Below are positions 356 to 26,237 of a DNA stretch of 64,000 nucleotides, in pieces. Made by a program: the position numbers and the translations under genes. The DNA comes from Spongiibacteraceae bacterium (GTDB taxonomy: Bacteria > Pseudomonadota > Gammaproteobacteria > Pseudomonadales > Dasaniaceae): positions 1 through 64,000 of the forward strand of contig JAUXHA010000004.1 in the NCBI GenBank assembly GCA_030621845.1. Reading direction: 5' to 3'. The notes beneath the pieces were generated by a model, which had not been told where the DNA came from, ran no database searches, and saw only the letters and a list, made by a program, of their open reading frames with translations. How positions within the stretch are numbered: position 1 is the stretch's first letter; the number at the start of each line of letters is the position of its first letter.

Positions 356-1240
356 TCAAATATGTTTATCTGACAGGATCGTCAACCATGACGAAAGGCT
401 TCTGATTATTTCTGCCTGATGTAGTGGATTGGTAACAATATGGTCAGAAGAAACAAGATGACTCACTGTTAATTTATTGCCGAAATCAACATCACTAAAG
501 CTATCCATGTATTGCGATTTGTAATTATACTCCTCCATCCCTCCTGTGAAGATGACATAATTTTCCACTCCTCTAGAAAAAATATTTTTAAGTCCGTCAG
601 CCACTTGCTTTCGTGGCGGAAATTCACGAGCATAATCCGCTTCTTCATAAAACTCATCATTAATACCAATATCCCCCTCGGTATCGTTATTTTTCGCCGC
701 GCCAGTAATAAACTTCACCAGGCGATTTCCACTACTAAGCCATCTTTCAAATATAAAAAATCTCGATGCATAATAATGAAAATAATATCTTGCAGTGCGA
801 TAGCAGTATGGATCAATTTGTGCGATTCCAACTACTCTAACGTCATCAAGCGCCGTTAGATATGAAGCATCTGCTCCAGAACAAAGTCCATACAAAACAA
901 ATTTTTTCACTCCACGTTTTTTTTGCAAATAATCCATCACTTCCGTAGCTTCTTTCACCACAGACTCTTCGAATGATTCAGTTCCTCTCCTCGATTCACT
1001 GTCACCAATGCCGGAAAAATCAAATCGAATCGACAGATTACCCGAATTGGAAAATGCTCTTGCCAACCTCACCGACAAGCGGCATGAACCTATGTGGTGC
1101 ATTACTCCAGAGTTAAAAATCAATACCGCTGGCCGCTCTGGATTGAAATTTTCAGGTTCAGATATAACTCCAATCAAAGGAACTGGCTTACCAATTCGAA
1201 CCGCCCGCTCTTTAACAAAGTTTTTGCCACTATCGATCAC
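356..1240 (-). CDS. alpha/beta-hydrolase, exosortase-A hydrolase-1-like
   Basis: This 294-residue protein has an alpha/beta-hydrolase core: an early strand with PAVLIFNSG, the FDFSGIGDSE strand-turn, and a nucleophile elbow GLCSG at residues 118-122. Cys120 therefore sits where serine is usual. The pattern resembles the type 1 hydrolase of exosortase A/PEP-CTERM loci, where a GLC elbow is also found (recalled, not searched). A late SSDH could supply the catalytic histidine. It starts with GTG at 1240, preceded by AGAGGG at a 7-base gap, 40 bases after the second hydrolase. As the last gene of the NRPS/PKS operon it may act in chain release or acyl transfer, but its substrate is unknown. Confidence 0.65.
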   Translation of the reverse strand: MIDSGKNFVKERAVRIGKPVPLIGVISEPENFNPERPAVLIFNSGVMHHIGSCRLSVRLARAFSNSGNLSIRFDFSGIGDSESRRGTESFEESVVKEATEVMDYLQKKRGVKKFVLYGLCSGADASYLTALDDVRVVGIAQIDPYCYRTARYYFHYYASRFFIFERWLSSGNRLVKFITGAAKNNDTEGDIGINDEFYEEADYAREFPPRKQVADGLKNIFSRGVENYVIFTGGMEEYNYKSQYMDSFSDVDFGNKLTVSHLVSSDHIVTNPLHQAEIIRSLSSWLTILSDKHI

Positions 1241-1280
1241 TAAAAAACCCTCTACGCTGACTAAACCGCCAAAACAAGTA

Positions 1281-2042
1281 TCAATCCATCCAGGCTACAA
1301 TCGCCTGAATAATTGGCTGTGGAAAAAGAATCCCCCCAAAATCATCAACAAAATTCCAGTCATGTGGCGCGGCCGTTAACTTACTTTCAAAACCTTTGTG
1401 CTTAGACCAAGTATTTTCCACAAGTTTAAATGACTCATCTTCATGTGACACCGCCTGATAAATTCTTGGTATTGACATGGGATCCATTTTCAACAAACTT
1501 AATTCGTCAAGGCTTGTTAAGAAGCGTTTTGGCAAAGGAAATCCATTGAAATTCAAGCATCCAGTTTCGTCTTCAAAATTTCTAGAGCATTCAGAAGCTA
1601 TTTCACCCCTTAGCTCTGCAATATAATCCTGGCCAGACAAAATTGGATCCCAAATAATTAAACGGCTAATATCCTTTCGTCCTATACAACTCGCTGCTGC
1701 AATCAATGCGCCTAAACGAAGTCCAATTACCGCTATCTTGTTCACTCCAGACATATCACGCAGTTCATCAATAGCCACAGCGACATCATCCTCCCAATCT
1801 TGAGCTTCAACAGTATTCATATCCAAGGCTGAATCCCCAGTTCCTCGATAGTCAAACCTGAGAACATGAAACCCTTTTTTTGCCAATGACATTGCCATTT
1901 GACGTAACGCTCGATGAGAACGCATACTTTCCTGCCCAAAAGGACTACAAAGCACCACACCTTCATTTTTTGACGCGTTGGATGCCGGGTAATAAACTCC
2001 GTATAGCGGTTCTTTAGAATTTCCGAAGAAAAATGCATTCAC
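1281..2042 (-). CDS. alpha/beta-hydrolase-fold protein, exosortase-A hydrolase-2-like
   Basis: This 253-residue alpha/beta-hydrolase-fold protein has the oxyanion strand VLCSPFGQE, the FDYRGTGDS turn and an elbow GLRLG at residues 107-111. Arg109 replaces the nucleophile, so a normal serine-hydrolase mechanism is not possible. The GLRLGA elbow is also typical of the type 2 hydrolase of exosortase A systems (from memory), so the substitution is probably a family trait rather than decay. It starts with GTG at 2042, four bases past the PKS stop, with AGGA inside the PKS 3' end as ribosome site, so translation is probably coupled. It may be a binding or scaffolding partner of the Cys-type hydrolase next to it. 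Confidence 0.65.
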   Translation of the reverse strand: MNAFFFGNSKEPLYGVYYPASNASKNEGVVLCSPFGQESMRSHRALRQMAMSLAKKGFHVLRFDYRGTGDSALDMNTVEAQDWEDDVAVAIDELRDMSGVNKIAVIGLRLGALIAAASCIGRKDISRLIIWDPILSGQDYIAELRGEIASECSRNFEDETGCLNFNGFPLPKRFLTSLDELSLLKMDPMSIPRIYQAVSHEDESFKLVENTWSKHKGFESKLTAAPHDWNFVDDFGGILFPQPIIQAIVAWMD

Positions 2043-2045
2043 AAG

Positions 2046-5000
2046 TCATTTCCTGCCAAATAATTTTTTCATAATACCATTAGATGAATTAACTTTTACG
2101 TCCTGCTCTAATGCATGTTGATTTTGTTCCGTATGATTAACGGTATCTGCATCATTGCATTCTGTATCAATCTCGCTAGCGATTTGTTCCAGCGTATGCA
2201 TAACCATCGTTGGCTGAGACAATCGCACACCAAATTTTTTATCTACTTTAACAATGATTCGAATAGATAATAGTGAGTGGCCACCAATATCAAAGAAATT
2301 TTCGTTAAGCCCTACCCTATCTACCCCCAGCACATCTTGCCATATCTCAGCTAATTGCTTTTCTGTTTTCGTACTCGGCTCAACAAATTTATCTTCTGGC
2401 CTAAGTGGGTCTTGTAATTTTTCCCTATCAACTTCACCCTGCTCGTCTCTTGGAACTTCATCAATCTCAATAAATTGTTGTGGTACTTTCTCATTAGACA
2501 ATAAGGATTTACTGTATTTTCTCAGATCACTGACTGTCACATGCTGGTAATCATCTGGATAATAATAAGCCATTAATCTGCGGCCACCACTTTCATCGAG
2601 AAAAGACCTGACAAATACCTGCTCTACCGCTTGATGTCCTAATAAACATTGTTCTATTTCAACAATATCTATATCTGAATCCGGGTCATGGATATCCTCC
2701 CTGATATAACTCGCTTTTGTATTTTCTTTCCGAATATCAGCCGGGGACTCTAATTGACTCCTCCATAGTGACGTGTCAACAGAAGAAACAATCCACTGAG
2801 TTCGTCCTGACTGTGACATTATCCGGTCAAAAGCCTCAACCCCCTCTTCTGGCAAAATCGCTTGTGACAGGATACTTGCCAGGCTGCCTTGTTGATTGTC
2901 TATATTCGCTTCAACAATGCCAGTGCGGGCCCCCTCATTCGCCGCAAAATCAACAGCAACCTTTTTCATAGTAAAACCATTAATCTCTACAATAGCTTTC
3001 CCTGTCTCATCTAATAGGGTCACATCAAATACAGCAAAATCGTCCACTGATTGATCGCTTACGCGGACATAACTGAGAAAAGAACGTGGCATAACATCAT
3101 GTATAAGCACTTTTTGATATGCCACTGGCACATAAAAATCATCTTCTTTTGAAAAACCATCTATCAGAAATTGAACACCACCAGTGGCCATATCTAATAA
3201 TGCTGGATGTAATCCATAGTGCTCTAGATCACCTGCATACTCTTCCGGAAGCACAATGTCTAACAAGGCTTCTTTCCCTCCCCACTGAATGCCACTAATG
3301 CAAGCCCAGCGCGGGCCAAAATTCATAAAAGTCTGATCAAGAAATTTTCCCTGAGTTAATGCAGTCTTCGTACAGCGCTTTCGTATAGCGCTTAAATCAA
3401 TAATATTGGCTTTACTATTAGTGATTCGCTTTGCATTAGCTACTGCATGAGGAAAACCTTCATCATCTGAATAAACTGTCAAATATGCCTGTTGTCCCTT
3501 ATCTTTAATTTCAATATGCATAGATTTGTTAACGTCGTCGGATACCTGCAAGGCAGTAAAAAATTGTATCGAAGAAAGCTCTATGGCAGAATTCTTTAAA
3601 TGACTTATTCCAGACCCAAGACAATACTGTAAAAATACCGCACGGAAGAGCTCAATAAAACCCGTCCCAGGTATAAGCGCACCACCATTCTTAACGCGAT
3701 GCTCAGATAACATCCACTGCCCATCAACAGTTAATCTGGTACTAAATAATTTTCTATTTTTTTCAAGATCAGTGTAATAGTCTAGCGCGGGGTGAGTTAT
3801 TGCATGTCTTTCAGCATTGATATCCACGCCATCATTCAGAGACAGCTGTTGTTGCGCAGCCATACCCACATCACGCCAGGCATTCCAATTAATAGCCAAT
3901 GACTCACCATTTTCACGAGTAGCACGCTCTTTAGAAAAAGCATCCAAAAAGGCATTAGCCGCGGAGTAGTCGATCTGTCCAGGCAAGCCAAGATAAGAAG
4001 CAACTGAAGAAAATACGATAAAGAAATCAAGACTATGTTGAGAAAAAATACTATCGAGTATTAATGCACCTTTAACTTTCGCATCGATGAGTCTTTGTGC
4101 CGATTGAGGTGTTTTAAGCAATATTAACTGATCGTCCATTGACCCTGCCGCATGAATTACCCCATCAACCGGCCCACAATCCTTGATTGCACTCTCGATC
4201 GCACTGCGACTACGTTCATAATCAGTAACATCCGCAGCGAGTACCACAACCTTTGCTCCCAATTTCTCAATTTTTTCCACCGCCAGAATTTTATTCGCCG
4301 TACTATCACTGGCCACATGCGTCTCCAGCCAATTTTTCCATACCGATCTGTCGGGCAAACCCTGCCGACCCTGTAAAATAATATATCCCGCGCCATTTTC
4401 AGCCAGGTAATGAGCAATTGTTAAACCTACACCACCAAGACCTCCACTAATAAAATATACTCCTCCATCTCGCAGCCAGGTCTTTTTTCTCGTATTTTTT
4501 TCCAACGGCTCTGACTCAATACGTCGAATTAAGCGATCGCTTCCCCGATAAGCGACCATAAGATCATCACCAGCTGAGCTCACCTCATTGACTATTTGCC
4601 TGGCGATTCTACCTAGGTCATTATTTTTAAATATCGCCGGAGAAACATCTATTGATTGTGTTTTTACATGGGGAGATTCATGTGGCAATACTGATACAGG
4701 ACCTATCAATAAAGACTTTTCCGGACAACTTTTATTGCCGATGGCATGCATGTCAGAAGACACTACCGTTAAGCGAATACTATCCTCCATTTCGCTCAAC
4801 ACTTTACTTAGATTAAACAAACCCCAAAAATAACTATTGGCACACGTCTCATAGTCATCAAGTCGTGCCATAGATGAATCTGGATAACGGCTCGCCTCAG
4901 TCACCGGCCATAGATAAATAATGTGCTGAGGCATTCGTTTCCCAGCATCCAGAGATTGCATCAGGCTTTCAAATTGCTCTAGATTATTCGTTGCAAGACG

Positions 5001-7946
5001 ATAGCTGCCATCATGGAGACTTTCGAATTTATTACCGGGTTTAACCCGAATAATCTTCGATGTTTTCTCCATCTGCTCAATAATTATCTGCGCAAGACCG
5101 ATTTCATCTTCGAAGATCAACCATGTCTGATCCAACTCTTCGATTAATTTTGGGGCGGCACTTTGCGCCCAATTATATTGAGCAAACCACTCACTTATAT
5201 CTGCACGTTTTTTCAAATCACCTGTTATTGTCTGCGCAGCCATCGGTATAGAAGTACCTGGGTCAACCCAATACGCTTTGCGCTCAAAGGGGTATCCGGG
5301 CAAAGCTATTCGCTGTCGCCGCTCATTCTCCCACAAACGACGCCAATCAAGCTCAATGCCTGAAGTCCAAATTCTTCCAAAAGCTCGCAAAGCGCATTCA
5401 ACATCAGAGTACGTTTCACTGGCATGCCGCATAGTATTAAATGTTGCCTGAGCTCTTAAGCTCCCTGCCTGCGATAAATTTGTTAATGCCCGACCTGGCC
5501 CGACCTCCACCAATACACGGTTATCATCTGACAACACTGTTGCAATATTTTCAGAAAATCTCACTGTGTTACGTAAATGTTCAACCCAATAATCCGGGCT
5601 TGTTGCCTCATCTTCTGTGATCCAGGTACCGGTTAAATTTGAAGTAAAAGGTACTTCTGGAGCAGAGAAATTTATTGACTGGCAAAAATCACGAAATTCA
5701 TCCAGAACAGAATCCAGCATTGCGGAATGTGCCGCCACATTAATACGCACGCGTGTGCAATCAATATCCTGATCTTCCAAGCTCTTTTGTAATTTCTCAA
5801 TACCCTCAACAGGACCTGATGCTACACAGAGATCATCGGCGTTCACTGCAGCGATATCCAGATTTTCTGGCATAATAGCGCGCGCTTTTTTTTCAGGAAG
5901 TGAAATGCTCAGCATCGCCCCTGAATCAATTTTCTCAAACAACTCCCCGCGCAATCGCACCAGACTCATCGCATCATTAAGGCTAATCACTCCTGACAAA
6001 CAAGCCGCAGTGTATTCACCCATTGAATGACCAACAAATGCTACTGGCTCAACTCCCCAGAACAACATTTGCTTTGCCAAAGCATATTCTGTTGCAAATA
6101 AAGAAGGTAGTGTTATTGACGGACACTCCAGGGTTTTCGATGCTATCTCAAGCGCCTCTTTTGCAAATACCAGCGATTTTATTTCCTCAGCGCTCACCCG
6201 CTCAAGGCATGCCAGACAGTCATCAAACGCCTGACGATAAACTTGTTCTTTTTCGTAGAGCTCGGCACCCATTCCTGCATACTGGGCACCACCTCCGGGA
6301 AACATAAATACTAATGAAGGTTGGCGATCCTCTGCCTTATCTTCCGCCACTCGCCTGGCATCACCGCCTTCAAGTAAGAATATTGCATCTTCACGATTGC
6401 CCACTGCAAGTACCCGACGATGACTATAAGCACGCCGGCCTAGCTGCAAAGTATAAGCAACATCAGCTAACTCCAGATCATTTTGCGCACGTATCACTGC
6501 AGCCAGATTTCGGCATGCGGTATTTAATGCCGTTTCTGTTTTCGCCGATATCACCAATAATTGTTTGTTAAGTCGACTGGACGTTTTAGCCTCTGGCTCA
6601 GGTGCCTGATCAAGAATGATATGCGCATTGGTTCCGCCTGCACCTAATGCGGTTATACCCGCCAGCCTTTTGCCATTCTCTTTCTGCCAATCCACCAATT
6701 TGTCATTGATTATAAAAGGGCTATCGTCGATCTCCATGTCCGGGTTGGGTGAAGTGTAATTAATACTCGGCGGTAACTGCTTATGCTGCAACGACAAGAT
6801 AACTTTAATAATCGCTGCCGCACCCGCTGCCTCACCCAAATGACCGATATTCGATTTTACCGATCCCAAGCGACAATAACTGCGCTTATCCGTTGCCTCA
6901 CGGTATACCTGGTTCAATGCTTCAAATTCGATCGGATCCCCAATCAGGGTGCCTGTTCCATGCGCCTCAATATAAGAAACATCTTCGGCATCGACACCAC
7001 TGACTTCCAAGGCTTCAGCGACGGCTCCCGCCTGTCCTTCAACGCCGGGCGCTAAATAACCCACTTTCTGCGCACCATCATTATTTATCGCTGATCCACG
7101 AATCAGCGCATAAATGCTATCGCCATCTTCTTTGGCATCATCAAGACGCCTCAATACAATAGCCCCCGCACCACTGCCGAAGACGGTTCCGGCAGATTTG
7201 GCATCGAATGGGCGACAGTGGCCGTCGGGCGACATTATTTCACCGTCTCGATAGAGATAACCGCGGCCCTGCGGAAGCAATACGGTGGAACCACCCACAA
7301 TAGCCGTATCGCATTCACCGCCCAGTAAACTCTGCACCGCCATATGTACGGCGACCAGGGAAGATGAACAAGCAGTCTGGATATTTAAACTGGGGCCTCT
7401 CAGGTCAAGTTCATAGGAAAGACGTGTTGCCAGGAAGTTCATATCGTTACCGGTATGACGCACCAGAAACTCACCCATCTCCTCGATCAATTGCGGGTTA
7501 GTATTGAGGTTGTCCATCCAATATTGGCTGGCACCCGAGCTTGCAAATACTCCCACTGTTCCTTCCGAATCATAGCCAGTATGACCCGCATGCTCTAAGG
7601 ACTGATAAGCCACCTCCAGAAATATCCGGTGGGCGGGATCTGTCACCGCCGCATCCTGAGGGCTAAAGCCCCAAAATTTAGCATCGAAACGGTCAAAGCC
7701 TTTCAGCAACGGTTGTGCGCGAACATAATTGGGATCGGCGAGTACAGCGGGGTCTTCACCAGCAGCAAGCAGTTGCTCATCGGTAAAGTTTTCAACGGAT
7801 TCGACACCCTCACGAAGATTATGCCAATATTCGTTAATATTTTCCGCGCCAGGCAAGTGACAAGCCATACCCACTATCGCAATAGTGGAGCCGTCATCCT
7901 CTTCTATATTTTCGTGGTCGTTCATAGTGTCAATTACCAATGCCAC
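2046..7946 (-). CDS. type I polyketide synthase, KS-AT-KR-DH-(A-lid)-ACP
   Basis: This is a single-module PKS of 1966 residues. The ketosynthase covers about 20-450, with Cys193 in TACSSS, His329 in EAHGTG and His369 in SNIGHLG. The acyltransferase (about 545-870) has Ser641 in GHSMGE and AAHS at 738-741 at the extender-choice position. A structural segment precedes the ketoreductase (about 1160-1360: GGLGGVG, Ser1314, Tyr1327, Asn1331; the MDD at 1270-1272 suggests a B-type reductase). The dehydratase-like region follows the reductase (His1416, Pro1426, Asp1585). Residues 1755-1850 are an adenylation C-terminal lid in which the invariant lysine is Glu1838, and a carrier with Ser1891 ends the chain. 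There is no thioesterase. It starts with GTG at 7946; ATG at 7925 is possible. The gene lies 44 bases after the NRPS and probably extends its product once. Confidence 0.9.
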   Translation of the reverse strand: MALVIDTMNDHENIEEDDGSTIAIVGMACHLPGAENINEYWHNLREGVESVENFTDEQLLAAGEDPAVLADPNYVRAQPLLKGFDRFDAKFWGFSPQDAAVTDPAHRIFLEVAYQSLEHAGHTGYDSEGTVGVFASSGASQYWMDNLNTNPQLIEEMGEFLVRHTGNDMNFLATRLSYELDLRGPSLNIQTACSSSLVAVHMAVQSLLGGECDTAIVGGSTVLLPQGRGYLYRDGEIMSPDGHCRPFDAKSAGTVFGSGAGAIVLRRLDDAKEDGDSIYALIRGSAINNDGAQKVGYLAPGVEGQAGAVAEALEVSGVDAEDVSYIEAHGTGTLIGDPIEFEALNQVYREATDKRSYCRLGSVKSNIGHLGEAAGAAAIIKVILSLQHKQLPPSINYTSPNPDMEIDDSPFIINDKLVDWQKENGKRLAGITALGAGGTNAHIILDQAPEPEAKTSSRLNKQLLVISAKTETALNTACRNLAAVIRAQNDLELADVAYTLQLGRRAYSHRRVLAVGNREDAIFLLEGGDARRVAEDKAEDRQPSLVFMFPGGGAQYAGMGAELYEKEQVYRQAFDDCLACLERVSAEEIKSLVFAKEALEIASKTLECPSITLPSLFATEYALAKQMLFWGVEPVAFVGHSMGEYTAACLSGVISLNDAMSLVRLRGELFEKIDSGAMLSISLPEKKARAIMPENLDIAAVNADDLCVASGPVEGIEKLQKSLEDQDIDCTRVRINVAAHSAMLDSVLDEFRDFCQSINFSAPEVPFTSNLTGTWITEDEATSPDYWVEHLRNTVRFSENIATVLSDDNRVLVEVGPGRALTNLSQAGSLRAQATFNTMRHASETYSDVECALRAFGRIWTSGIELDWRRLWENERRQRIALPGYPFERKAYWVDPGTSIPMAAQTITGDLKKRADISEWFAQYNWAQSAAPKLIEELDQTWLIFEDEIGLAQIIIEQMEKTSKIIRVKPGNKFESLHDGSYRLATNNLEQFESLMQSLDAGKRMPQHIIYLWPVTEASRYPDSSMARLDDYETCANSYFWGLFNLSKVLSEMEDSIRLTVVSSDMHAIGNKSCPEKSLLIGPVSVLPHESPHVKTQSIDVSPAIFKNNDLGRIARQIVNEVSSAGDDLMVAYRGSDRLIRRIESEPLEKNTRKKTWLRDGGVYFISGGLGGVGLTIAHYLAENGAGYIILQGRQGLPDRSVWKNWLETHVASDSTANKILAVEKIEKLGAKVVVLAADVTDYERSRSAIESAIKDCGPVDGVIHAAGSMDDQLILLKTPQSAQRLIDAKVKGALILDSIFSQHSLDFFIVFSSVASYLGLPGQIDYSAANAFLDAFSKERATRENGESLAINWNAWRDVGMAAQQQLSLNDGVDINAERHAITHPALDYYTDLEKNRKLFSTRLTVDGQWMLSEHRVKNGGALIPGTGFIELFRAVFLQYCLGSGISHLKNSAIELSSIQFFTALQVSDDVNKSMHIEIKDKGQQAYLTVYSDDEGFPHAVANAKRITNSKANIIDLSAIRKRCTKTALTQGKFLDQTFMNFGPRWACISGIQWGGKEALLDIVLPEEYAGDLEHYGLHPALLDMATGGVQFLIDGFSKEDDFYVPVAYQKVLIHDVMPRSFLSYVRVSDQSVDDFAVFDVTLLDETGKAIVEINGFTMKKVAVDFAANEGARTGIVEANIDNQQGSLASILSQAILPEEGVEAFDRIMSQSGRTQWIVSSVDTSLWRSQLESPADIRKENTKASYIREDIHDPDSDIDIVEIEQCLLGHQAVEQVFVRSFLDESGGRRLMAYYYPDDYQHVTVSDLRKYSKSLLSNEKVPQQFIEIDEVPRDEQGEVDREKLQDPLRPEDKFVEPSTKTEKQLAEIWQDVLGVDRVGLNENFFDIGGHSLLSIRIIVKVDKKFGVRLSQPTMVMHTLEQIASEIDTECNDADTVNHTEQNQHALEQDVKVNSSNGIMKKLFGRK

Positions 7947-7990
7947 TTATTAAAAATTAAACTTACTCTGCTGCAACAATCGCAAGTCGT

Positions 7991-13945: not shown

Positions 13946-14473
13946 TTACTTTCCCAGTATTTATCATCAAGTAAGGTTTAAACCCTAATTCATTATTTCT
14001 CTGTGCCAAATCCTTTGGTGTAGGCTACCCGGTACTAAATCCAGTATTTCCTTCAAATAAGCAAAACCGCAGCAGGAAAAGCCAGCGCGTAGAATAAGAT
14101 GATGTTGTTTGAATGTGCGCAGAGAATGGTGACTTTTCCATATGAATCTTACCTTGCAGCCCTCGATTAACACCAGCAGGCTTCCCTTTTAAATCATATT
14201 CGCCAAACAAGCCGATATGGGTAGAAAATAACCAAATTTCATTTCATCATTAGCTCGATGACAAGACCATCGACAATGACAATATGACTCATAAAACCTC
14301 AATACCTAGCCCTATAGTATCGTCATAATCATGGGAAAATTCCAGCTCTGGCAACGTTAATAATGCGCTCAAAACGGTGGCTTATGTGAATACTGGGCTG
14401 CATGACTCACTGACAGCCCGTAACAGCTCCGGTATACTTCCGAGCTTTCGGCGTCAGGCACAAGAAGAAGCTT
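13946..14473. other. divergent intergenic region, NRPS / glycan cluster
   Basis: These 528 bases separate two divergent operons. The plus-strand promoter is described separately. A weaker minus-strand candidate is TTGGCA at about 14004-14009 upstream of the NRPS, but I see no good -10 element for it. Two overlapping minus-strand open frames of about 60 codons between 13985 and 14210 resemble no known family and lack ribosome sites. A regulatory role for the rest is possible but unsupported. Confidence 0.4.
14410..14438 (+). promoter_or_regulatory. sigma-70 promoter for glycan cluster
   Basis: CTGACA at 14410-14415 and TATACT at 14433-14438 are separated by 17 bases, close to the consensus -35/-10 pair. 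The start point would be near 14445, about 30 bases before the GT2 gene. Confidence 0.6.
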
Positions 14474-15607: not shown

Positions 15608-15613
15608 GCAAAT

Positions 15614-16768: not shown

Positions 16769-16884
16769 CCATAAAGTGAATTAGCCCACATATTCACCCA
16801 ACTTAACTGTTCCTCACTATCCTCTGCGAATAATATAGAACTGCTTTCCAGGAGAATTACCGCGCCCAGCGAGGAGCCAATCAA

Positions 16885-17727: not shown

Positions 17728-17808
17728 TCTTCCCTAATATTCACATCGACTATTTATTTGATTTTTGTTAGTGTCGCAGCAATCAACTAACCAAAAGATA
17801 TAAAAACG

Positions 17809-18918
17809 ATGCGCAAGGTATTGCATTTACGCTCAACAGGAGAGCTATTGGGCGCGGAGCGCGTAATACTGGAATTAGCCAAATACCTGCCAAAATTCAA
17901 CTACCAGCCAATCATTGGCATACCCGTAGAAAAAAACCAGGCGCTGCCAGAATTTGTATCTGCAGCAAAACAACTGGGCTATGAGGTAGTCACCTTCCCA
18001 ATAAGCACCGCCTTCGACATTAGCGCAATTAAGGCTATTAAAAAATATGTTCAGGAAAACCAAATCGACATCATTCACAGTCATGGCTATCGTGAAGATT
18101 TTTATGCCATTTTTGCCCGCACCACGGCAAAACTGGTCGCCACCAATCACTTATGGAAGCGTACAAGTTTAAGGTTACGTTTGTATGCAGCCCTGGATGC
18201 ACGTCTTCTCAAGCGCTTCAATTCAATCATCGCAGTGTCGGAGCCGGTGCAGCAAGATATGCTGCAATGTAAAATACCAGCCGATAATATAAACGTAATT
18301 CCCAACGGTATCGATGCCGCTGCATTTAGCAAACAAGTTGACATTAGCGCAACAAGAAAGTCATTAAATATTCCGGAAGATGCCATTATCATCGGCACCT
18401 TAAGTAGCTTGAGCAAGGAAAAGGGCCTTGAGTACATCATCAAAGCCAGCGCAGAAACACTGCAGAAAATTACTAACATCCATCTTCTACTGGTAGGCGA
18501 CGGCCCTGAAAGAGAACAGCTGCAGGCACTGGTTCAGAAACTCTCCCTAAGCGACTCGGTAACTTTCGCTGGGCGACGCAGTGATATTAACGATGTCCTT
18601 GGCGCAATGGATATTTTTGCACTGCCCTCACTTAATGAAGGTTTACCCATGGCTTTACTGGAAGCCATGGCAAGCGAGAAAGCTGTTATTGCCACCCGTG
18701 TTGGCGATGTAGAAAAGGTAATAACTGCTGAAAGCGGCATAGTGATCGCACCGGCCAACGTAGCACAATTAAGCAGCGCCCTGATAAAACTCGCCAGCGA
18801 TCAATCCATCCGCAAAGAACTAGGCTATCAGGCAAAAATTCGTATTCAACAGAATTTCTCATCCCTGGCGATGGCCCGCGCTAATGCGGCCATTTACGAT
18901 AATGTATTAAACCACTGA
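17809..18918 (+). CDS. glycosyltransferase family 4
   Basis: This 369-residue GT-B enzyme has an N-terminal acceptor lobe with the GAERVILELA loop near residue 16. The C-terminal donor lobe has IGTLSSLSKEKGLEYII and the E-x7-E element in NEGLPMALLEA, as in retaining GT4 enzymes that use nucleotide-sugar donors. It has no signal peptide or membrane segment, so it is a peripheral cytoplasmic enzyme of glycan assembly. It lies 81 bases after the lyase-like gene, and a second GT4 gene follows after 11 bases. The sugar transferred is unknown. Confidence 0.88.
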   Translation: MRKVLHLRSTGELLGAERVILELAKYLPKFNYQPIIGIPVEKNQALPEFVSAAKQLGYEVVTFPISTAFDISAIKAIKKYVQENQIDIIHSHGYREDFYAIFARTTAKLVATNHLWKRTSLRLRLYAALDARLLKRFNSIIAVSEPVQQDMLQCKIPADNINVIPNGIDAAAFSKQVDISATRKSLNIPEDAIIIGTLSSLSKEKGLEYIIKASAETLQKITNIHLLLVGDGPEREQLQALVQKLSLSDSVTFAGRRSDINDVLGAMDIFALPSLNEGLPMALLEAMASEKAVIATRVGDVEKVITAESGIVIAPANVAQLSSALIKLASDQSIRKELGYQAKIRIQQNFSSLAMARANAAIYDNVLNH

Positions 18919-18929
18919 AGAATATAAAC

Positions 18930-20039
18930 GTGAGAATCGGACTGGTCATTGATACTTTCAACATAGGCGGCGCTGAATCAATGGTTTTTGAAATAGCCCG
19001 CCTATTAAAAACAAACGGTGACACACCTGTTTTACTCCATTTTGGTAGCGGTTATATCAAGGAATTCGCTAAGCTTAACGATATAGAAAGCCATACCAGT
19101 CCAAATCGACAATACTATAAAAAATCCTATTTACTACCGTTATTTGCCCTCCGTACAAAAAAGTTTATCCGCAAACTTAATCTGGACTGTTTGCACTCTC
19201 ATCTATTCGGTCCAATTATAGCGTTTGCCCCACTGGCATGGCTTATTCGATTACCACATGTTGGCACATTACACGATGTCTATATGATCGAAGATGCGCC
19301 CAGAAGAATTTTATTAATAAAATTTGCGGCAATACTCAAAACACAACTTGTAGCCGTATCCAAACCAATGAGAGCATTTTATCAAAGAGCTGCAAATTTT
19401 TCCGAGGATAAAATTGCATACATTCCAAATGCCACCCCAAAAAATAAGCAGTTACAGCAGCGGGCATCCATCAGGAAACAATTACAACTGAAAGATACCG
19501 ATACAGCAGTATTCACCGTAGGGCGACTGGTTAGCTTGAAGCGCTTTGACATACTGATTAACGCCATGGCTTATATCAAGGAAAATTCTGCAATTAAAAC
19601 CTTTATTGTCGGAGCTGGCCCAGAAAAAATGGTTCTGCAACAGCTGATAAATAAACTCAACATCCCTGATCGCGTTATGTTGTTAGGTGAGAGAAACGAT
19701 GTCTACGAGTTACTGGCAGCAGCGGACATATTCACACTGACATCGGAAACTGAAGGCATGTCAAAAAGCATTCTCGAAGCACTTGCCAGCAATCTACCCG
19801 TCATCGCCACCGATGTTGGCGGCAATCAGGATCTCGTGCACCACGATGATAATGGGTACTTAATCAACGACCACTCGCCGGAAACATTGTCCCTGTATAT
19901 CGAGAAATTAGCTCAAGACAAAACACTAAGATTGGAAATGGGAAAAAATAGCCAGCTATTATTAGAACAGGAATACAATCCCGAGCTATTCTTACTTCGC
20001 CATTTGAACATCTACAAAAAGGTCACCAACAAAAAATAG
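18930..20039 (+). CDS. glycosyltransferase family 4
   Basis: This second 369-residue GT4 enzyme starts with GTG. Its N-lobe opens IGLVIDTFNIGGAESMV, with the glycine-rich loop of GT4 proteins. The donor lobe contains VGRLVSLKRFDILI and the E-x7-E motif in TEGMSKSILEA. It is similar in length and layout to the previous gene but clearly different in sequence, so it probably makes a different linkage rather than being a recent duplicate. The next glycosyltransferase starts only one base after its stop codon, which points to coupled translation. Confidence 0.88.
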   Translation: MRIGLVIDTFNIGGAESMVFEIARLLKTNGDTPVLLHFGSGYIKEFAKLNDIESHTSPNRQYYKKSYLLPLFALRTKKFIRKLNLDCLHSHLFGPIIAFAPLAWLIRLPHVGTLHDVYMIEDAPRRILLIKFAAILKTQLVAVSKPMRAFYQRAANFSEDKIAYIPNATPKNKQLQQRASIRKQLQLKDTDTAVFTVGRLVSLKRFDILINAMAYIKENSAIKTFIVGAGPEKMVLQQLINKLNIPDRVMLLGERNDVYELLAAADIFTLTSETEGMSKSILEALASNLPVIATDVGGNQDLVHHDDNGYLINDHSPETLSLYIEKLAQDKTLRLEMGKNSQLLLEQEYNPELFLLRHLNIYKKVTNKK

Positions 20040-20040
20040 T

Positions 20041-21285
20041 ATGAAAATTTTATGGCTCTCCCACCTTGTCCCCTACCCACCAAAAGCCGGCGTGCTTCTT
20101 CGCGCACACTATTTAATTAAAGAGCTTTCCAGGTATCATCAAGTAGATTTACTTGCGTTTAATCAGCGTCAACTGATTGAGCCCTATTTCGACTCGTACG
20201 AAGAAGGCTCCGCAATTGCCTTAAGTAAGATGCAGGAAATTTGTGGTCGCGTGAAATTTATAGACTGCCCAATGGATAAATCCGCTCACAGCAAAAAAAT
20301 CTGTGCCATTAAGAGCCTGGTCTCTTCTAAACCTTACAATATAAACTGGCTGACCGATCAAAAATTTGCTGACTATGTTAATCAGTGGCAGGGCGAGGAA
20401 TCTTATGATTTGATACATTGTGACACCATCAGCCTTGCCCCCTATGTGGCTGATATCAATAATTGCGTGCTAAGCCTGGATCATCACAATGTCGAATCAC
20501 ATATGTTGATTCGGCGCGCAGAACTAGAAGCCAACCCCCTTAAGAAGTTTTATTTTTGGCAAGAAGGCATTAGGCTGGAAGCATTTGAAAAAAAATACTG
20601 CTCCCGGTTTGACACCAACCTGTGTTGCTCGGAATTAGACTCTATTCGCTTTAGAGCGATATGCCCCGATGCCAGTTTCACCGAAATACCTAATGGCGTA
20701 GATACACAACTATTCACGCCGGGGAGTTGCGAGCAGGATCCAGCCACATTAATATTTATTGGCACACTGGACTGGTATCCGAACACCAGAGCTGTACGCT
20801 ATATCGCAAATGAGATCTGGCCAAGATTAAAACAGATCATCCCAAACGCTAAAATCAACATCATTGGATATGGTGCACCCGAAGACCTGCTTCAACTAAG
20901 TAATCAGGACAGTAATTTTAATGTATTGGGCTACGTAGACGATCTTAAACCGTACCTTGACACCGCCACCCTGTATATTTGCCCTATTGACGATGGTGGG
21001 GGAACCAAGCTAAAAATTCTTGATGCGTTCTCTGCCGGGAAGGCTGTTGTTGCGCACGAAGTGGCCTGCGAAGGATTACAAGTAGAGCACGGAAAACAAG
21101 CTCTGCTAGCGAGTGATGCCGATAGCTATATCGAAAACATTATTACACTCATAGAGAATAAAAATCTGCGCGAGGAGATACAAAAAAATGCTCGGAAACA
21201 CGTTGAAGAGTCCTTCTCTTTTAGTTCGATCGGACTCCGGCTATCCCAACATTTTTCTAAATTGCACGCCGACAAAAAGAAATAA
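20041..21285 (+). CDS. glycosyltransferase family 4, PEP-CTERM/EPS type
   Basis: This 414-residue GT4 enzyme begins MKILWLSHLVPYPPKAG, an opening typical of sugar transferases found in exosortase/PEP-CTERM and related EPS loci (from memory). The donor lobe contains FIGTLDWYPNTRAVRY and the acidic PIDDGGGTKLKILDAFSAGK segment in place of a standard E-x7-E. It is cytoplasmic and probably adds a sugar to a lipid-linked intermediate. The gene starts one base after the previous GT and ends 14 bases from the end of the convergent beta-helix gene. No exosortase gene occurs in the window, so the link to that system rests on resemblance alone. Confidence 0.85.
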   Translation: MKILWLSHLVPYPPKAGVLLRAHYLIKELSRYHQVDLLAFNQRQLIEPYFDSYEEGSAIALSKMQEICGRVKFIDCPMDKSAHSKKICAIKSLVSSKPYNINWLTDQKFADYVNQWQGEESYDLIHCDTISLAPYVADINNCVLSLDHHNVESHMLIRRAELEANPLKKFYFWQEGIRLEAFEKKYCSRFDTNLCCSELDSIRFRAICPDASFTEIPNGVDTQLFTPGSCEQDPATLIFIGTLDWYPNTRAVRYIANEIWPRLKQIIPNAKINIIGYGAPEDLLQLSNQDSNFNVLGYVDDLKPYLDTATLYICPIDDGGGTKLKILDAFSAGKAVVAHEVACEGLQVEHGKQALLASDADSYIENIITLIENKNLREEIQKNARKHVEESFSFSSIGLRLSQHFSKLHADKKK

Positions 21286-21299
21286 TCAGCAGATAAAAA

Positions 21300-23135
21300 T
21301 TACGCCCTGGGCACAACGTTCACACTCGGATCATTCATTTTTTTTATTGGGGCTTTTTGATCCGGCAAGGTAATCTCTGACAAAGAACCGGAAGGCCCTA
21401 TAAGTTCATACCCAGTTAAGTAAATTCCCTTGTTGGAGCCACCTACGCCCGTTCCCAGACAGGGTGAACCGGCCTGTAAACTATAGTCGCCTGTAGATGG
21501 ACTGGTAAACCTGGGGTTACTATTAACATCATGCGCTGCGAACTTTCCACCCGACGCCGAGCTTACCTGGCCAGAATTTGAATATTGCTTACCTAAATAG
21601 TAGTAACCACCTGAATTGTAGGTATGGTTGTAATCTGCAAATTCCAATACATTTTTATTTGAATTGGAGTTATTACCCTTCGACTCATAGTTAACCCAAA
21701 TTCTGTCTGAATTATACATAATGTTATTAAATATCTGCCAGTTGTAGGTATCCTGAAGCCAAAATACACCATTGCCACTTCTACCCGCACTATCAAAAAC
21801 ATTGTTACTGACAAACTGCTTACCGGATGCGCCGGCAGCATTACCCCGATCATAAATGGCGTAGTAGGTTGTCAGATTTTTAAATACATTAGCTTGTATG
21901 ATTGCATAATTTTGATGATTGGAGGATGAGCCATAGCCATAATCCAGGCCAATACCGCAATCATGTAAATAACAGAATCTCACAACAGGTGATACCGATC
22001 CGGCATTAGGACGCTTGAAGTAACAGGCCGGGCCAGCATTTGATGACTCACAGCGATTAAGTGAGAAATTTGTTGAATCATAATAGAGACACAAACCACC
22101 CGCATTCTGGTTGGTATTACTGCCATTTACCTGAATGTTATTGGAGGCACAGCGCCACATTCTCAAGCCATCGACATGCTGCCCACAAAATGCCGCCGTA
22201 TTACTGGAACCATTTATATTATTAAAGGTACAGAGCTCAATATTGATACCTGTACTCTTTCCTTTCCAGTTCATTATTCCGCCATTCTCACAATACTGTG
22301 CTGAACTACTGTTGAGATTGGTAAAATCTATCTTCCTGAATGTCATCCAGTTCATGCCACCGGCAGCATAAAACCCTATAGAGGTTACACCGCTACCATC
22401 AATCCTTAATTTATTCCCTGGCCATGCCTGGATAAATACTCTATTGCCCTCATTGTTTCTACCCGCTGGGGTTTTAATACAGTTAGCCGTACCACCACCG
22501 CCATTAGGGTTCGCGGTATTAGTTCCATCAGGAACTACCGTGCCTTTACCATAGATATATCGTTTTGATCCCACATTGGCAATTGCATCATAGATGTTAT
22601 TGTACGGACTCGATGTAGTACCTGAACCATTTGACCCGGCCTGGGCATCAAAGAATACTGCAGAATTATTGGCCGCAGTAGTCCCATCATCAATAACACC
22701 ATAAGCCCTGGTGTAACTGCCATTATGAAGCGTCAAGCCGCCTGTAGGGTTAGATAACTGCGCAACAACCCGGTGATCTCCAGCTACTGTTTTACCCGGC
22801 ACATCAACCGTAAACGACTTTATATCCGCCTCACCATCGGCCCAGGATAGAATTCCGCTAGCCGCGCTATGGCTATCGCCACTGGTTGAGAAACTGACAC
22901 TCACCGACCCTGAAGTCCCGTGCGTTCTACATACAAAGAAAGTATGGGTACCGACAGAATTCAGCTCTGAATAGTCCATATAAAAGCCAACACGACCCGG
23001 TCCAGACAAATTTATCCTAAGCGGCGTGATCAATTGCGTCGAGTTAGCACTTTGTGCAAAGGATGGGTTGAATTTAAGTAACGTCGTGGAGCCCACGGTT
23101 GCCGTCAGGGCCTTCATAAATAATCTTCTATCCAT
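21300..23135 (-). CDS. Tat-exported right-handed beta-helix protein with Calx-beta-like domain
   Basis: This 611-residue protein has a twin-arginine signal (DRRLFMKAL near the start, hydrophobic stretch, AQS). Residues about 40-160 look like a Calx-beta or related immunoglobulin-like domain. From about 180 on, short Asn- and Gly-rich repeats with regular spacing form a right-handed parallel beta-helix like pectate lyases and chondroitinase B. It would be exported folded and act on a glycan in the periplasm or outside as a lyase, epimerase or binder. ATG at 23135 is preferred over TTG at 23156. It is the only minus-strand gene in this cluster and faces the next gene with a 78-base gap. Confidence 0.7.
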   Translation of the reverse strand: MDRRLFMKALTATVGSTTLLKFNPSFAQSANSTQLITPLRINLSGPGRVGFYMDYSELNSVGTHTFFVCRTHGTSGSVSVSFSTSGDSHSAASGILSWADGEADIKSFTVDVPGKTVAGDHRVVAQLSNPTGGLTLHNGSYTRAYGVIDDGTTAANNSAVFFDAQAGSNGSGTTSSPYNNIYDAIANVGSKRYIYGKGTVVPDGTNTANPNGGGGTANCIKTPAGRNNEGNRVFIQAWPGNKLRIDGSGVTSIGFYAAGGMNWMTFRKIDFTNLNSSSAQYCENGGIMNWKGKSTGINIELCTFNNINGSSNTAAFCGQHVDGLRMWRCASNNIQVNGSNTNQNAGGLCLYYDSTNFSLNRCESSNAGPACYFKRPNAGSVSPVVRFCYLHDCGIGLDYGYGSSSNHQNYAIIQANVFKNLTTYYAIYDRGNAAGASGKQFVSNNVFDSAGRSGNGVFWLQDTYNWQIFNNIMYNSDRIWVNYESKGNNSNSNKNVLEFADYNHTYNSGGYYYLGKQYSNSGQVSSASGGKFAAHDVNSNPRFTSPSTGDYSLQAGSPCLGTGVGGSNKGIYLTGYELIGPSGSLSEITLPDQKAPIKKMNDPSVNVVPRA

Positions 23136-23213
23136 TTTCAACACTCTTGTTGTCAAACTAATGAATATAATTTATCAAGGGGATTTGGCTAATACAAGAT
23201 TTCCTGCCCATAA

Positions 23214-24419
23214 ATGTGCATTCTTAAGCAATCTCTTCTAAAATTGCAGATTGAATCACAACTTCCGAGACAGCCTCAATCAACCGGTACAACTTTAAAG
23301 GGCATTGGCTTGTTTTCCCCAAAGATTAAAGCGTTCACATTATACCCCACTTATTTTGCCCGGCACTACTCACACTTCCTTGCTGGCATCATTCAATACA
23401 GCAGTGAATATAACATAAGGTTATATTTTACAGGCCTTGGTGGCGAAATAAGCAATATGCAGGACCTCACCGGGGCCTCTTTCCTTCGCTGCGAGCTTCA
23501 TTCCGGGGAAATACTCGATATCTGCTTTGATATGGGCGACTGGCCAGAAATCGCCTCCATAGCGGCCCTGGACGCCTGTGATATTTATGTCAAAAGAAGC
23601 CTTTCTTACCAGCACCTCAGCACCCTGCCAGAACAATACAAAGCCAAAATAGTACCCTATGGATTTTATTTTGCCTGCTCACAGGAAAGCCTGGGCATGG
23701 AATTTAAAGCCGCCAGAGCGTACTGGCTGGACCGACTTGCCAGCGGCGCCAGTAATGGCTACATGGCCAGTATCTTCCTGGCCAGATGGATTGCGCGAGC
23801 CCTGTTTAAACGCAAGCCTTTATTTATACCGCTTTCATCACTGGAGGCGATTAACGGCGGGGAAAATACCGTCTTTTACCATGCCAGAATCTGGAATCCG
23901 GTACACCATAGAACACACGCTTCAAAGACAATCGAAGCGCTTAATAACACCAGGATGAACCTGGTAAGAACATTAAAAGAAGGCTTGGGAGAAAAATTTA
24001 TAGGTGGAATAACACCATCAGAATACGCCTCGAGAATATGCCCGGAATTAATTACACCCCACGGAAGTGACAGTGCCTCATATATGAAACTACTCTCTCA
24101 ATCAAAAATTGTCATTACCGAAGAGGGCTTACATGGGTCAACAGGATCACGACTTGGCGAATACTTTGCAGCCAATCGCTGTGTTGTCAGCGAGGCACTT
24201 TACTACGAAGTTCCAAATCAACCCATCAATGGAAAACATTGGCATGTCTATAATAGTGTTTCTGAATGCCTTGAGATATGCCAGAGACTTATTGAAGACC
24301 CAATACTGATTGAGGAAACCATCCAAAATATAAGCTCATTTTATAACGAATACAGCAGCCCACAACGTACTATATTTCATCTTCTGGAAGACAAGGTCAG
24401 TAAAGAGCAATCTAAATAA
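23214..24419 (+). CDS. putative glycosyltransferase-like protein (exostosin-like C-terminus)
   Basis: No family could be named with confidence for this 401-residue protein. It has no signal peptide. The C-terminal third (KIVITEEGLHGSTGSRLGEYFAAN, then a CVVSEAL strand) resembles the donor-binding lobe of GT-B and exostosin-type glycosyltransferases, and an FYHARIWNP element lies in the middle. The first 30 residues look unlike protein core, and the ATG has no good ribosome site, so the true start may be later. Its place between a glycan-active exported protein and a GNAT gene fits a sugar transferase. The gene ends 15 bases before the GNAT gene. Confidence 0.45.
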   Translation: MCILKQSLLKLQIESQLPRQPQSTGTTLKGIGLFSPKIKAFTLYPTYFARHYSHFLAGIIQYSSEYNIRLYFTGLGGEISNMQDLTGASFLRCELHSGEILDICFDMGDWPEIASIAALDACDIYVKRSLSYQHLSTLPEQYKAKIVPYGFYFACSQESLGMEFKAARAYWLDRLASGASNGYMASIFLARWIARALFKRKPLFIPLSSLEAINGGENTVFYHARIWNPVHHRTHASKTIEALNNTRMNLVRTLKEGLGEKFIGGITPSEYASRICPELITPHGSDSASYMKLLSQSKIVITEEGLHGSTGSRLGEYFAANRCVVSEALYYEVPNQPINGKHWHVYNSVSECLEICQRLIEDPILIEETIQNISSFYNEYSSPQRTIFHLLEDKVSKEQSK

Positions 24420-24434
24420 CTTCCTGAGGAAGCA

Positions 24435-25259
24435 ATGCACAATACAAAAAAACATCAAGTAATAATACAAGAATGTATTCTGGAATCGGCACGTGATGCT
24501 GCCATTCTTATGGGCTTACTAAACAAAAATATTGAAGAAGAAGTGTATGCTGAAAAAACTGTTAACAATAATAAGTTCACCGTATCAAAAAAGGAACTAA
24601 AAAACAGAGCTGCTCGACTGGATATTATTTACATAGACCAAATACCCATAGGCTCAGTAGTCCTCGTTGAAATCAGCCATAAACTCTACCACATGGCCGG
24701 GATGTACATAAAAGAAAGTTATAGAGGGAAAAACCTTAAAGATAAATTAAATACAGCCCCTGAAACTGACCCACATCAAAAGCCATCTATTTTTTTACTG
24801 GAAAATCTAATAAAGGACCTGCTGGATCAAGATTATCAAATGACACTGGAAGTGATGAATTATAATCGCGGAGCCTGCGAACTCTATGAAACCAGATTCT
24901 TTACTGGCGATAAAAATAAAACCGAGCTTGGCTTGGAATTAATGACAAAAGATAACATCTTATCTTATTCGAAATACCGGAAAAAAAATATTGGCAAGTG
25001 GCACAATATCGGTGAAGAAAACCAGGAAAAAAGATGGGGAATACAATGGGAAAACGTACCTGACTATAAGAATACGACCCGCTGGTCAATTAACCGGATT
25101 TACTTGTTGGCCGCGCCAGGAGACTCTTTCCTTCTTTCTGACAAGTCAAAAATATCGAAAAAAAGAAAGGTAGAACTATTTTTACACATTCTATTCTCCA
25201 GACAATGGTTAGCCTATCTAAACTATAGATTAACCAATATTATTGCCAGGCGCAGCTAA
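24435..25259 (+). CDS. GNAT-family acetyltransferase-like protein
   Basis: This 274-residue protein carries a GNAT fold over about residues 8-175. GSVVLVEISHKLYHMAGMYI gives the central strands, SYRGKNLKDKL is an acyl-CoA pyrophosphate-loop-like segment, and NRGACELYE is the C-terminal GNAT signature. About 100 further residues, rich in Trp, Tyr and Arg, match nothing I know and may bind the acceptor. GNAT enzymes here would acylate an amino sugar, for example the product of the DegT aminotransferase. It is probably co-transcribed with the preceding gene; GAGGAAG lies just before the ATG. The codon use is AT-rich compared with the first half of the cluster. Confidence 0.6.
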   Translation: MHNTKKHQVIIQECILESARDAAILMGLLNKNIEEEVYAEKTVNNNKFTVSKKELKNRAARLDIIYIDQIPIGSVVLVEISHKLYHMAGMYIKESYRGKNLKDKLNTAPETDPHQKPSIFLLENLIKDLLDQDYQMTLEVMNYNRGACELYETRFFTGDKNKTELGLELMTKDNILSYSKYRKKNIGKWHNIGEENQEKRWGIQWENVPDYKNTTRWSINRIYLLAAPGDSFLLSDKSKISKKRKVELFLHILFSRQWLAYLNYRLTNIIARRS

Positions 25260-25430
25260 CAACGGTCGCCATGAAAGGGCTTGATAATCAAGCTTTGTAC
25301 ATTATTACAGTTTTTAATTGTATAAAACTGATAAGATTTCGATGATAATCGCCACCAATAGCACTATTACAATCAATATTGAGCGAAATGTTTTCATCCC
25401 CGCGCTCTCTAAACCTTATATAGAAGATTT

Positions 25431-26237
25431 ATGGATAAAGATAAAGCACAGGAATTTTTCAAACACGAAGTCAGTGATTATAAATCAGAGCATTATGGAT
25501 CAGGCTACCGAACCTTCATGTCAGTCCGGCAAGAGGCATTCCTAGATGACATTGATAAGCTCAACTTACCAGCGGCCAGCATAGCCCTGGATGCCGGATG
25601 TGGCCCCGGGCTACTCACCAAAGAATTATTTGATCGGGGGCTAAACATGTACTGCCTGGATACTTCAGGCGCAATGTTAAATCTTGCAAAAAGCCAATAT
25701 ACCGAACAGGACTCCCCCCTACCAGAGTTCACCCAGGGTAACATTGAGTCCATTCCCTTTGATGAAAATCACTTTAACCTGCTGGTAAGCGCCGGTGTCA
25801 TTGAATACCTTAAAACTGACGATACCGCTCTTAGCGAGTTCCACAGAGTCTTAAAAAAAGACGGCTTTCTTATTTTATCAGTTACTAATAGCCTTTCGCC
25901 CATTGGTATTCTTGAGGGGCTGATCGAATGGATAAAACGCAATGATTTTACGCGCGGACTATGCAATCAACTACTGTCGGCCATGGGGCGCACCCCGGTA
26001 AGGGCCAGGGAATTTGAAGTAAGAAAACACCACCCTGCAAACTTCGATAAGGCGATAGAAAGAAACGGATTCAGCATAATAAAATCCGGATACTTTTACA
26101 TGCTACCTTGGCCTCACCCCTTTGACAGAATATTCCCCAATGCCAGCTCCCTTCTCGGGAATAAAATCGAATCTATCAGTAACTCCCGGTTTGGTTGGCT
26201 TTCTGAAGGCTATTATGTCGTCGCAGAGAAAAAATAA
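25431..26237 (+). CDS. class I SAM-dependent methyltransferase
   Basis: This 268-residue protein has the SAM-binding motif LDAGCGPGL near residue 49, the acidic strand end CLDTSGAML and the later SAGVIEYL and SVTNSLSP strands of class I (Methyltransf_11/25-like) enzymes. It is cytoplasmic. The lack of a transit signal and its location suggest methylation of a sugar, lipid or quinone-like acceptor related to the glycan cluster. A 171-base gap separates it from the GNAT gene, so it may have its own promoter; none is clear. It converges on the minus-strand TIM-barrel gene 178 bases away. Confidence 0.8.
   Translation: MDKDKAQEFFKHEVSDYKSEHYGSGYRTFMSVRQEAFLDDIDKLNLPAASIALDAGCGPGLLTKELFDRGLNMYCLDTSGAMLNLAKSQYTEQDSPLPEFTQGNIESIPFDENHFNLLVSAGVIEYLKTDDTALSEFHRVLKKDGFLILSVTNSLSPIGILEGLIEWIKRNDFTRGLCNQLLSAMGRTPVRAREFEVRKHHPANFDKAIERNGFSIIKSGYFYMLPWPHPFDRIFPNASSLLGNKIESISNSRFGWLSEGYYVVAEKK

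Follow-up and report, generated by a model that had tools for sequence, protein, structure and literature searches.

The stretch of DNA that we analysed (the window, 64,000 nucleotides) carries near its left end a short assembly line and, next to it, a cluster of glycosyltransferase genes. The genes of the line, NRPS-PKS-hydB-hydA, are separated by gaps of just 40, 3 and 44 bp (read from left to right) and were therefore taken as one operon (positions 356-13945, minus strand). The glycosyltransferase cluster (14474-26237) diverges from it, and the strandless region between the two (13946-14473) is exactly 528 bp long; both the coordinates and the gene content hold as in the first-pass annotation, which had described an NRPS/PKS/hydrolase operon and a glycan operon diverging from 528 bases. 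We found no sigma-54 site (PrsR/RpoN) in this gap or in its counterpart in another genome of the same family (G006), and the sigma-70-like matches in the gap were not above chance.

The first base of the window is at the same time the end of the contig (G000:C17, 64,224 bp), which stops 355 bp beyond hydA, and hence the operon may continue leftward past the contig end. G006 has further NRPS/PKS genes on the side that matches the left of the window. Positions 4163-29712 were found again, 99.8-99.9% identical, in a metagenome-assembled genome (MAG) of another family. Since the flank of the window matches the first family only, we rejected a horizontal transfer between the two families; the second contig (G091:C53) looks misbinned.

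The NRPS (7991-13945, minus strand, as are all its domains) consists of a formyltransferase (FT) domain, a C-like remnant, an adenylation (A) domain that is interrupted twice, and a peptidyl carrier domain (8102-8293). The formyltransferase domain (13046-13945) has the catalytic Asn-His-Asp motif (INFHDAPLP, FDAGK) and precedes the first A domain, as in FT-initiated NRPSs. Between the N-terminal part of the A domain (A3-A4, 11522-12220) and its central part (A5-A8, 9746-10420) there is a luciferase-like FMN monooxygenase, MOx (10466-11521; residues 809-1160), which matches TIGR04020 (seco_metab_LLM) with 488 bits at a cut-off of 244. A SAM methyltransferase (9161-9496), missing in most relatives, is found between A8 and A9. 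The N-terminal and the later part together give the Stachelhaus code DILQLGVIWK, read by hand from the core motifs. This code is DILQLGLIWK-like, that is, of the glycine type, and we take it to stand for glycine. In every relative aligned (other NRPSs that contain MOx) it is kept as DILQ[LM]G[VM][IV]WK. A literature search for the code string found no paper containing it, and the best PDB match of the A domain is LgrA. A short formylated amino acid-ketide unit had been proposed earlier; the formyltransferase and a starter that is an amino acid are confirmed, and this amino acid is now read as glycine.

The second protein is a type I PKS (2046-7946, minus strand) with the domains KS-AT-KR-DH, a vestigial C-terminal subdomain of an A domain and an ACP, without ER and without TE. 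This domain set allows one ketide addition with ketoreduction and dehydration. Judging from the domains, glycine would be loaded, N-formylated and then alpha-hydroxylated by the embedded MOx; in myxothiazol and melithiazol a MOx inside the glycine A domain is responsible for C-alpha hydroxylation (PMC11342130). The formyl-glycyl starter may also be O- or N-methylated, or collapse to a glyoxylyl group, and one malonate extension with ketoreduction and dehydration would leave the chain as an enoyl thioester bound to the carrier of the PKS. The product varies between hosts, as the lines of Marinobacter contain a C-A-PCP dimodule.

The two remaining genes of the operon encode alpha/beta hydrolases that had been compared to those of exosortase/EPS loci. 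This likeness is real, though both proteins stay under the curated cut-offs: hydA (356-1240, minus strand) is related to hydr1_PEP (TIGR03100, 73.6 bits, cut-off 168) and hydB (1281-2042, minus strand) to hydr2_PEP (TIGR03101, 95.8 bits, cut-off 203). We therefore rejected them as full members of these two families, and they form a clade apart from the canonical hydr1. On the other hand, they are adjacent and carry the GLC.G and GLRLG elbows of hydr1/hydr2 pairs. In hydA the nucleophile elbow is GLCSG with Cys120 in the nucleophile position, and His267 is nearly invariant. The elbow of hydB, GLRLG, has neither of the catalytic residues Ser or Cys, so hydB is likely, by its motif, a partner or a non-catalytic subunit.

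The genes of the glycan cluster encode, in this order, a GT2 glycosyltransferase (14474-15607), a DegT/DnrJ/EryC1 aminotransferase with the PLP lysine motif (15614-16768), a secreted polysaccharide-lyase-14-like protein (16885-17727), two GT4 glycosyltransferases (17809-18918 and 18930-20039), an stp1-like glycosyltransferase of the XrtA system (20041-21285; TIGR03087, 213 bits, cut-off 317), orf618, a glycosyltransferase-like protein, GTx (23214-24419), a GNAT-family acyltransferase (24435-25259, a weak match) and a SAM-dependent methyltransferase (25431-26237). All are on the plus strand except orf618, which is on the opposite strand. Homologues of the GT2 (51-73% identical) are located near exosortases in most of the order's other genomes that have one, which makes the GT2 of the window a marker of XrtA exopolysaccharide (EPS) loci; the DegT aminotransferase is paired with it across these loci. 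As for the XrtA system itself, the window genome encodes three PEP-CTERM signals that exceed the cut-off, together with two PrsK matches of 610 and 484 bits (cut-off 300). No match to exosortase A (PF09721) was found in this genome, a MAG that is 84% complete; the EpsB/Wza/Wzc core is not in the window, nor was EpsB_2 found in the MAG.

The hydB/hydA pair is the mark of a family of short assembly lines without a thioesterase domain. At least 13 genomes from at least five lineages, including Marinobacter, Oleiphilus, HTCC2143 and several MAGs, have such a line within an XrtA EPS locus. Of the 30 genomes with an exosortase that were searched, 13 have it no more than 40 kb from the line and on one contig with it, while random placement would give about 2% per genome (kinship is uncorrected in this comparison). 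In G006 the line is part of an XrtA locus in which PrsK, PrsR, PrsT, the XrtA deacetylase, FemAB, chain-length, export and EpsB_2 proteins all score above the curated NCBIfam cut-offs. Exosortase A is present in G006, Marinobacter and others, and the EpsB/Wza/Wzc core is present in the loci of G006 and Marinobacter. The assembly-line operon and the glycosyltransferase cluster could be mere neighbours on the contig with separate functions, and relatives of either half do occur without the other. We consider this improbable: in G006 the NRPS is head to head with GT2-DegT as it is in the window, in Marinobacter the hydrolase/NRPS operon stays beside GT2-DegT, and the exosortase distances make chance placement unlikely. 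The earlier idea that the assembly line is linked to a surface polysaccharide thus gains support, as the hydrolase pair is also common to XrtA loci.

While this part of the neighbourhood comparison speaks for a link to the polysaccharide, another part does not, since no glycan genes lie near the homologous lines of G097 and G031/G122, nor near the line in G124. These cases would fit a line that makes a diffusible small molecule (a signal, an antibiotic or a metallophore), placed in EPS loci by a shared role in biofilms, with hydA/hydB as a stand-alone off-loading thioesterase. Moreover, several of the FT-MOx lines have next to them a gene for a Tat-exported molybdopterin oxidoreductase, as if this enzyme worked on a released product. 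Still, we regard a diffusible product as rather unlikely. No self-resistance gene was found in the operon as far as it is visible or in the divergent cluster, and the absence of a thioesterase and an exporter, remarked on before, was seen again in this region; XrtA loci devoid of an assembly line share the hydrolase pair; and the position inside an EPS locus is kept across several lineages.

The XrtA loci without an assembly line have a TIGR03098 ligase, a TIGR03099 decarboxylase and an ACP upstream of hydr2-hydr1, whose elbows are again GLRLG and GLC.G. For this reason the NRPS-PKS line seems, on the evidence of gene order and motifs, to take the place of the ligase-ACP unit. The GT2-DegT pair was seen in about 10 XrtA loci (about half of those read) where the stretch that was read shows no multidomain line. 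It is therefore no obligate partner of the line, and a product coupled specifically to a DegT-made amino sugar, as first suggested, is not supported. An exosortase is present in 30 of the 39 genomes checked, almost all of which have the hydrolase; what the line associates with is the XrtA system as a whole and not one glycan gene. This would also agree with a product that is joined, instead of to the polysaccharide, to some lipid or protein within the exosortase system, perhaps in the group that XrtA attaches to PEP-CTERM proteins; yet the amine of the N-formylated starter is blocked, canonical XrtA systems function without an NRPS and nothing points directly to such an acceptor, which makes this reading very improbable.

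We give about even chances to the operon being a short line of the XrtA/PEP-CTERM exopolysaccharide programme that provides the polysaccharide with an acyl group. The missing exosortase and EpsB in an incomplete MAG count against it, as do the separate clade and the missed cut-offs of hydA/hydB, the product that varies between hosts, the lines away from glycan genes and the GT2-DegT pairs without a line. We infer that the product would be transferred to the glycan: hydA, with its Cys nucleophile, and hydB would lift the acyl chain from the PKS carrier and hand it on to a sugar, either in the polysaccharide or in its lipid-linked precursor, in parallel to the role that hydr1/hydr2 would have next to the ligase-decarboxylase-ACP unit in ordinary XrtA loci. 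More tentatively, and with less than even confidence, XrtA EPS loci may in general hold an interchangeable cassette for acyl delivery, in which hydr1/hydr2 (a Cys type and its Arg-elbow partner) move carrier-bound acyl groups to the polysaccharide. The supplier could then be a single ligase-ACP unit or a full NRPS/PKS line, and assembly-line chemistry (here a formyl-glycyl ketide) would be put directly on a surface polymer.

In the literature we found no account of XrtA exopolysaccharide chemistry or of the role of the conserved ligase, decarboxylase, hydr1 and hydr2 genes, and a search for NRPS/PKS genes in XrtA loci, with subscription papers outside its coverage, found nothing relevant. Should assembly lines indeed feed this pair of hydrolases, the line would predict a defined acyl-carrier substrate, and the reaction of the pair becomes testable. 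In that case many NRPS/PKS clusters in Marinobacter and related marine bacteria, which presumably now pass for secondary-metabolite clusters, would be making polymer decorations and not free molecules.

Several known systems share parts of this arrangement. A monooxygenase inside a glycine-activating A domain is known from myxothiazol, melithiazol and some corallorazine-type NRPSs, but there the glycine module comes last or almost last in the line, whereas here it provides an N-formylated starter that is followed by a PKS (PMC11342130). Linear gramicidin synthetase LgrA likewise has an FT domain ahead of its first A domain; in contrast to it, the window NRPS has a glycine code, an embedded MOx and methyltransferase, no further NRPS module, and a PKS extension. 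WcbR and RkpA of capsular polysaccharide clusters are type I PKSs encoded together with genes for polysaccharide synthesis and export, although they belong to a different capsule system, whose description includes neither an NRPS nor a hydr pair (PMC3908369). Finally, compared to the canonical XrtA locus (TIGR03098, TIGR03099, ACP, TIGR03101, TIGR03100), the NRPS-PKS line stands in place of the ligase-decarboxylase-ACP unit and hydA/hydB branch as a clade of their own that scores under the cut-offs, whereas the hydrolase pair with its order and its GLRLG/GLC.G elbows, the carrier-bound acyl supply directly upstream of it, and the EPS neighbourhood with its glycosyltransferases are the same.

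The operon comprises hydA (356-1240), hydB (1281-2042), a PKS (2046-7946) and an NRPS (7991-13945), all on the minus strand and separated, in that order, by 40, 3 and 44 bp. Exactly 528 bp divide it from the divergent glycan cluster (14474 to 26237), which encodes a GT2, a DegT aminotransferase, a PL14-like protein, two GT4s, an stp1-like glycosyltransferase, a GT-like protein, a GNAT and a methyltransferase. The first-pass annotation was accurate in the coordinates, divergent gap and gene content of both clusters. The window takes in positions 1-64000 of a contig of 64,224 bp, from a MAG that is 84% complete; since the contig stops 355 bp past hydA, the downstream end of the operon is out of view. 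Inside the glycan cluster, on the opposite strand, the Tat-signal protein orf618 (21300-23156) has no match in Pfam or NCBIfam and looks like a beta-helix carbohydrate-active protein. The G+C content is about 0.43-0.45 at 1-30000 and 0.52-0.53 at 32000-64000, with a step near 28-32 kb; possibly the part with the NRPS and glycan genes is an island. Positions 30793-53500 hold a sugar-catabolism block (two DUF3604 proteins, ThuA, a GMC oxidoreductase, a sulfatase, glucokinase, MFS, GFO/IDH/MocA and LacI).

In the NRPS, a formyltransferase (FT) is followed by a remnant resembling a C domain (residues about 331-540, not matched by Pfam Condensation), a twice-interrupted adenylation (A) domain and a carrier. 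The A domain is interrupted between A4 and A5 by a TIGR04020 FMN monooxygenase (MOx; 488 bits, cut-off 244), and between A8 and A9 by a methyltransferase. Glycine is assigned as the putative substrate from the specificity residues, D-I-L-Q-L-G-V-I-W-K, by comparison with DILQLGLIWK, which we take to be a glycine code; a text search for this string found no paper. The pattern DILQ[LM]G[VM][IV]WK recurs in the other MOx-containing NRPSs aligned (ten further genomes), and the Asn-His-Asp residues are mostly kept in those with a complete FT. The PKS reads KS-AT-KR-DH-ACP, with active-site residues present (read by hand) and a vestigial C-terminal piece of an A domain before the ACP; it has neither ER nor TE. 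In myxothiazol and melithiazol, a MOx inside a glycine A domain hydroxylates the alpha carbon, after which the N-C bond breaks down and glyoxylate is left on the carrier (PMC11342130). Given this precedent and a predicted N-formyl glycine starter, the line would form an N-formyl alpha-hydroxy (or methoxy) glycyl unit, or a glyoxylyl unit, which would then be extended by one ketide and dehydrated.

The two hydrolases resemble hydr1_PEP (hydA) and hydr2_PEP (hydB) of exosortase A (XrtA) loci but do not reach the curated cut-offs (73.6 vs 168 and 95.8 vs 203 bits), and a midpoint-rooted tree with some long branches sets canonical hydr1 apart from NRPS-linked hydA as two groups. All of 30 hydA homologues have Cys120 (in GLCSG), and nearly all have His267. 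The nucleophile elbow of hydB is GLRLG, its Arg invariant among 25 homologues, and therefore offers no Ser or Cys nucleophile. The AlphaFold models are confident (pLDDT 86 for hydA, 93 for hydB), and that of hydA finds its matches among alpha/beta hydrolases, the best of which include lipases and feruloyl esterases.

In XrtA loci that have no assembly line (genomes G014, G044, G080, G087, G278 and similar), hydB-hydA, sometimes fused, are accompanied by an acyl ligase of about 530 aa, a protein of about 410 aa and, in most, an ORF of ACP size (81-91 aa). In G278 the ligase, the ~410-aa protein, hydB and hydA are TIGR03098, TIGR03099, TIGR03101 and TIGR03100, all above cut-off, while the small ORF matches no family and owes the name ACP to its size and place. 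Here too one elbow is GLRLG and the other, in most, GLC-D. Since ligase and ACP normally precede a hydrolase pair with like elbows, the NRPS/PKS carrier in the window seems to occupy the ligase-ACP place. Other XrtA loci (on contigs G038:C1, G001:C13, G007:C29 and G323:C2) contain A-domain or PKS proteins of other kinds (833-1930 aa) and no NRPS-type hydA, a hint that exopolysaccharide (EPS) loci hold additional types of assembly line.

The hydA alignment, used to scan genome contigs, gave 37 loci; hydB adjoins hydA in nearly all and NRPS/PKS genes lie alongside most. An exosortase was found in 30 of the 39 genomes checked, almost all of which carry such a hydA. In 13 genomes both lie on one contig at most 40 kb apart: G006, G098 (HTCC2143), G099 (Oleiphilus MAG), G100, G102, G104, G111 and six Marinobacter or Marinobacter-like genomes (G103, G105-G109). 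Random placement would bring them this close in about 2% of cases per genome; the probability calculated on that basis is too optimistic because the Marinobacter genomes are related, though the 13 still span at least five lineages. Across the order, 9 of 13 genomes with an NRPS-type hydA have an exosortase vs 115 of 378 others (p 0.005, ignoring kinship). Where at least 25 kb was read on one side of the locus, several XrtA-EPS core genes lie within 35 kb in 13 cases and within about 42 kb in one more, G096; G101, G110 and G123 show a single marker, and G097 none. In exosortase-bearing genomes, most of the other multi-module NRPS sites listed lie, on our reading, off the exosortase's stretch.

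G006, of the same family as the window MAG, has its NRPS head to head with GT2-DegT, as in the window, and exceeds the cut-offs of the curated PrsK, PrsR, PrsT, XrtA deacetylase, FemAB, chain-length, export and EpsB_2 models. Its GT2 homologue (L036, around 1311-2450) and PKS (L035, around 14125-14293) each appear to be split between two frames, so that the genes are broken or the assembly is in error. At G006:C5:727569-731000 (L035) and L045:9247-12359, two hydB/hydA pairs, adjacent or tail to tail and each with its own NRPS/PKS genes, suggest that the whole cassette was duplicated. The cassette also occurs in L068 (CAMAPQ010000053.1), a record whose title, Klebsiella pneumoniae, looks mistaken; it appears to be the genome G042, from the window's order.

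Of the order's 391 genomes, 29 have homologues of the window GT2 (E<1e-60), and most of these homologues have an exosortase on the same contig within about 30 kb. Neither exosortase nor EpsB was found in the incomplete window MAG. Because it does contain PrsK (610 bits) and three PEP-CTERM signals, the organism probably has an XrtA system, the rest of the locus being absent from the assembly. Window positions 4163-29712 recur, about 99.9% identical, in G091:C53 (L029/L030), a contig binned to a different family in this order; as the flank at 42.5-53.5 kb matches the first family only, that contig looks misbinned.

The first-pass annotation proposed that the line makes an acyl decoration for an amino sugar, and suggested looking for its conserved co-occurrence with GT and DegT genes. 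A multidomain A/PKS gene is present in about half of the GT2-DegT XrtA loci read at length vs 0 of 10 control XrtA loci without GT2 (p about 0.005, counted by hand). The line is therefore associated with the GT2-DegT subtype yet optional, and DegT does not depend on it. Homologous operons lying regularly apart from glycan genes were to count against the proposal, and some do lie apart: in G097, G031/G122 and G124, the stretches read around the related FT-MOx lines hold no glycan genes. Several FT-MOx lines adjoin a Tat-exported molybdopterin oxidoreductase (L033:15675-17855; L031, G031:C52:25680-27893; L050:6979-8964; G117:C5:8925-11078; Pfam MoCoBD in G009), which is absent from the window; this fits a released aldehyde-like product. 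Of the single explanations, attachment of the product to the polysaccharide ranks first, at roughly even chances, because the hydr2/hydr1 module is shared with XrtA loci. That the line belongs to the EPS programme is well supported and highly probable.

The assembly-line cluster is a variant form of the XrtA EPS locus. A literature search, which did not cover subscription papers, found no description of an NRPS/PKS line in such loci, and the nearest published precedent is the WcbR/RkpA type I PKS of capsule clusters (PMC3908369).
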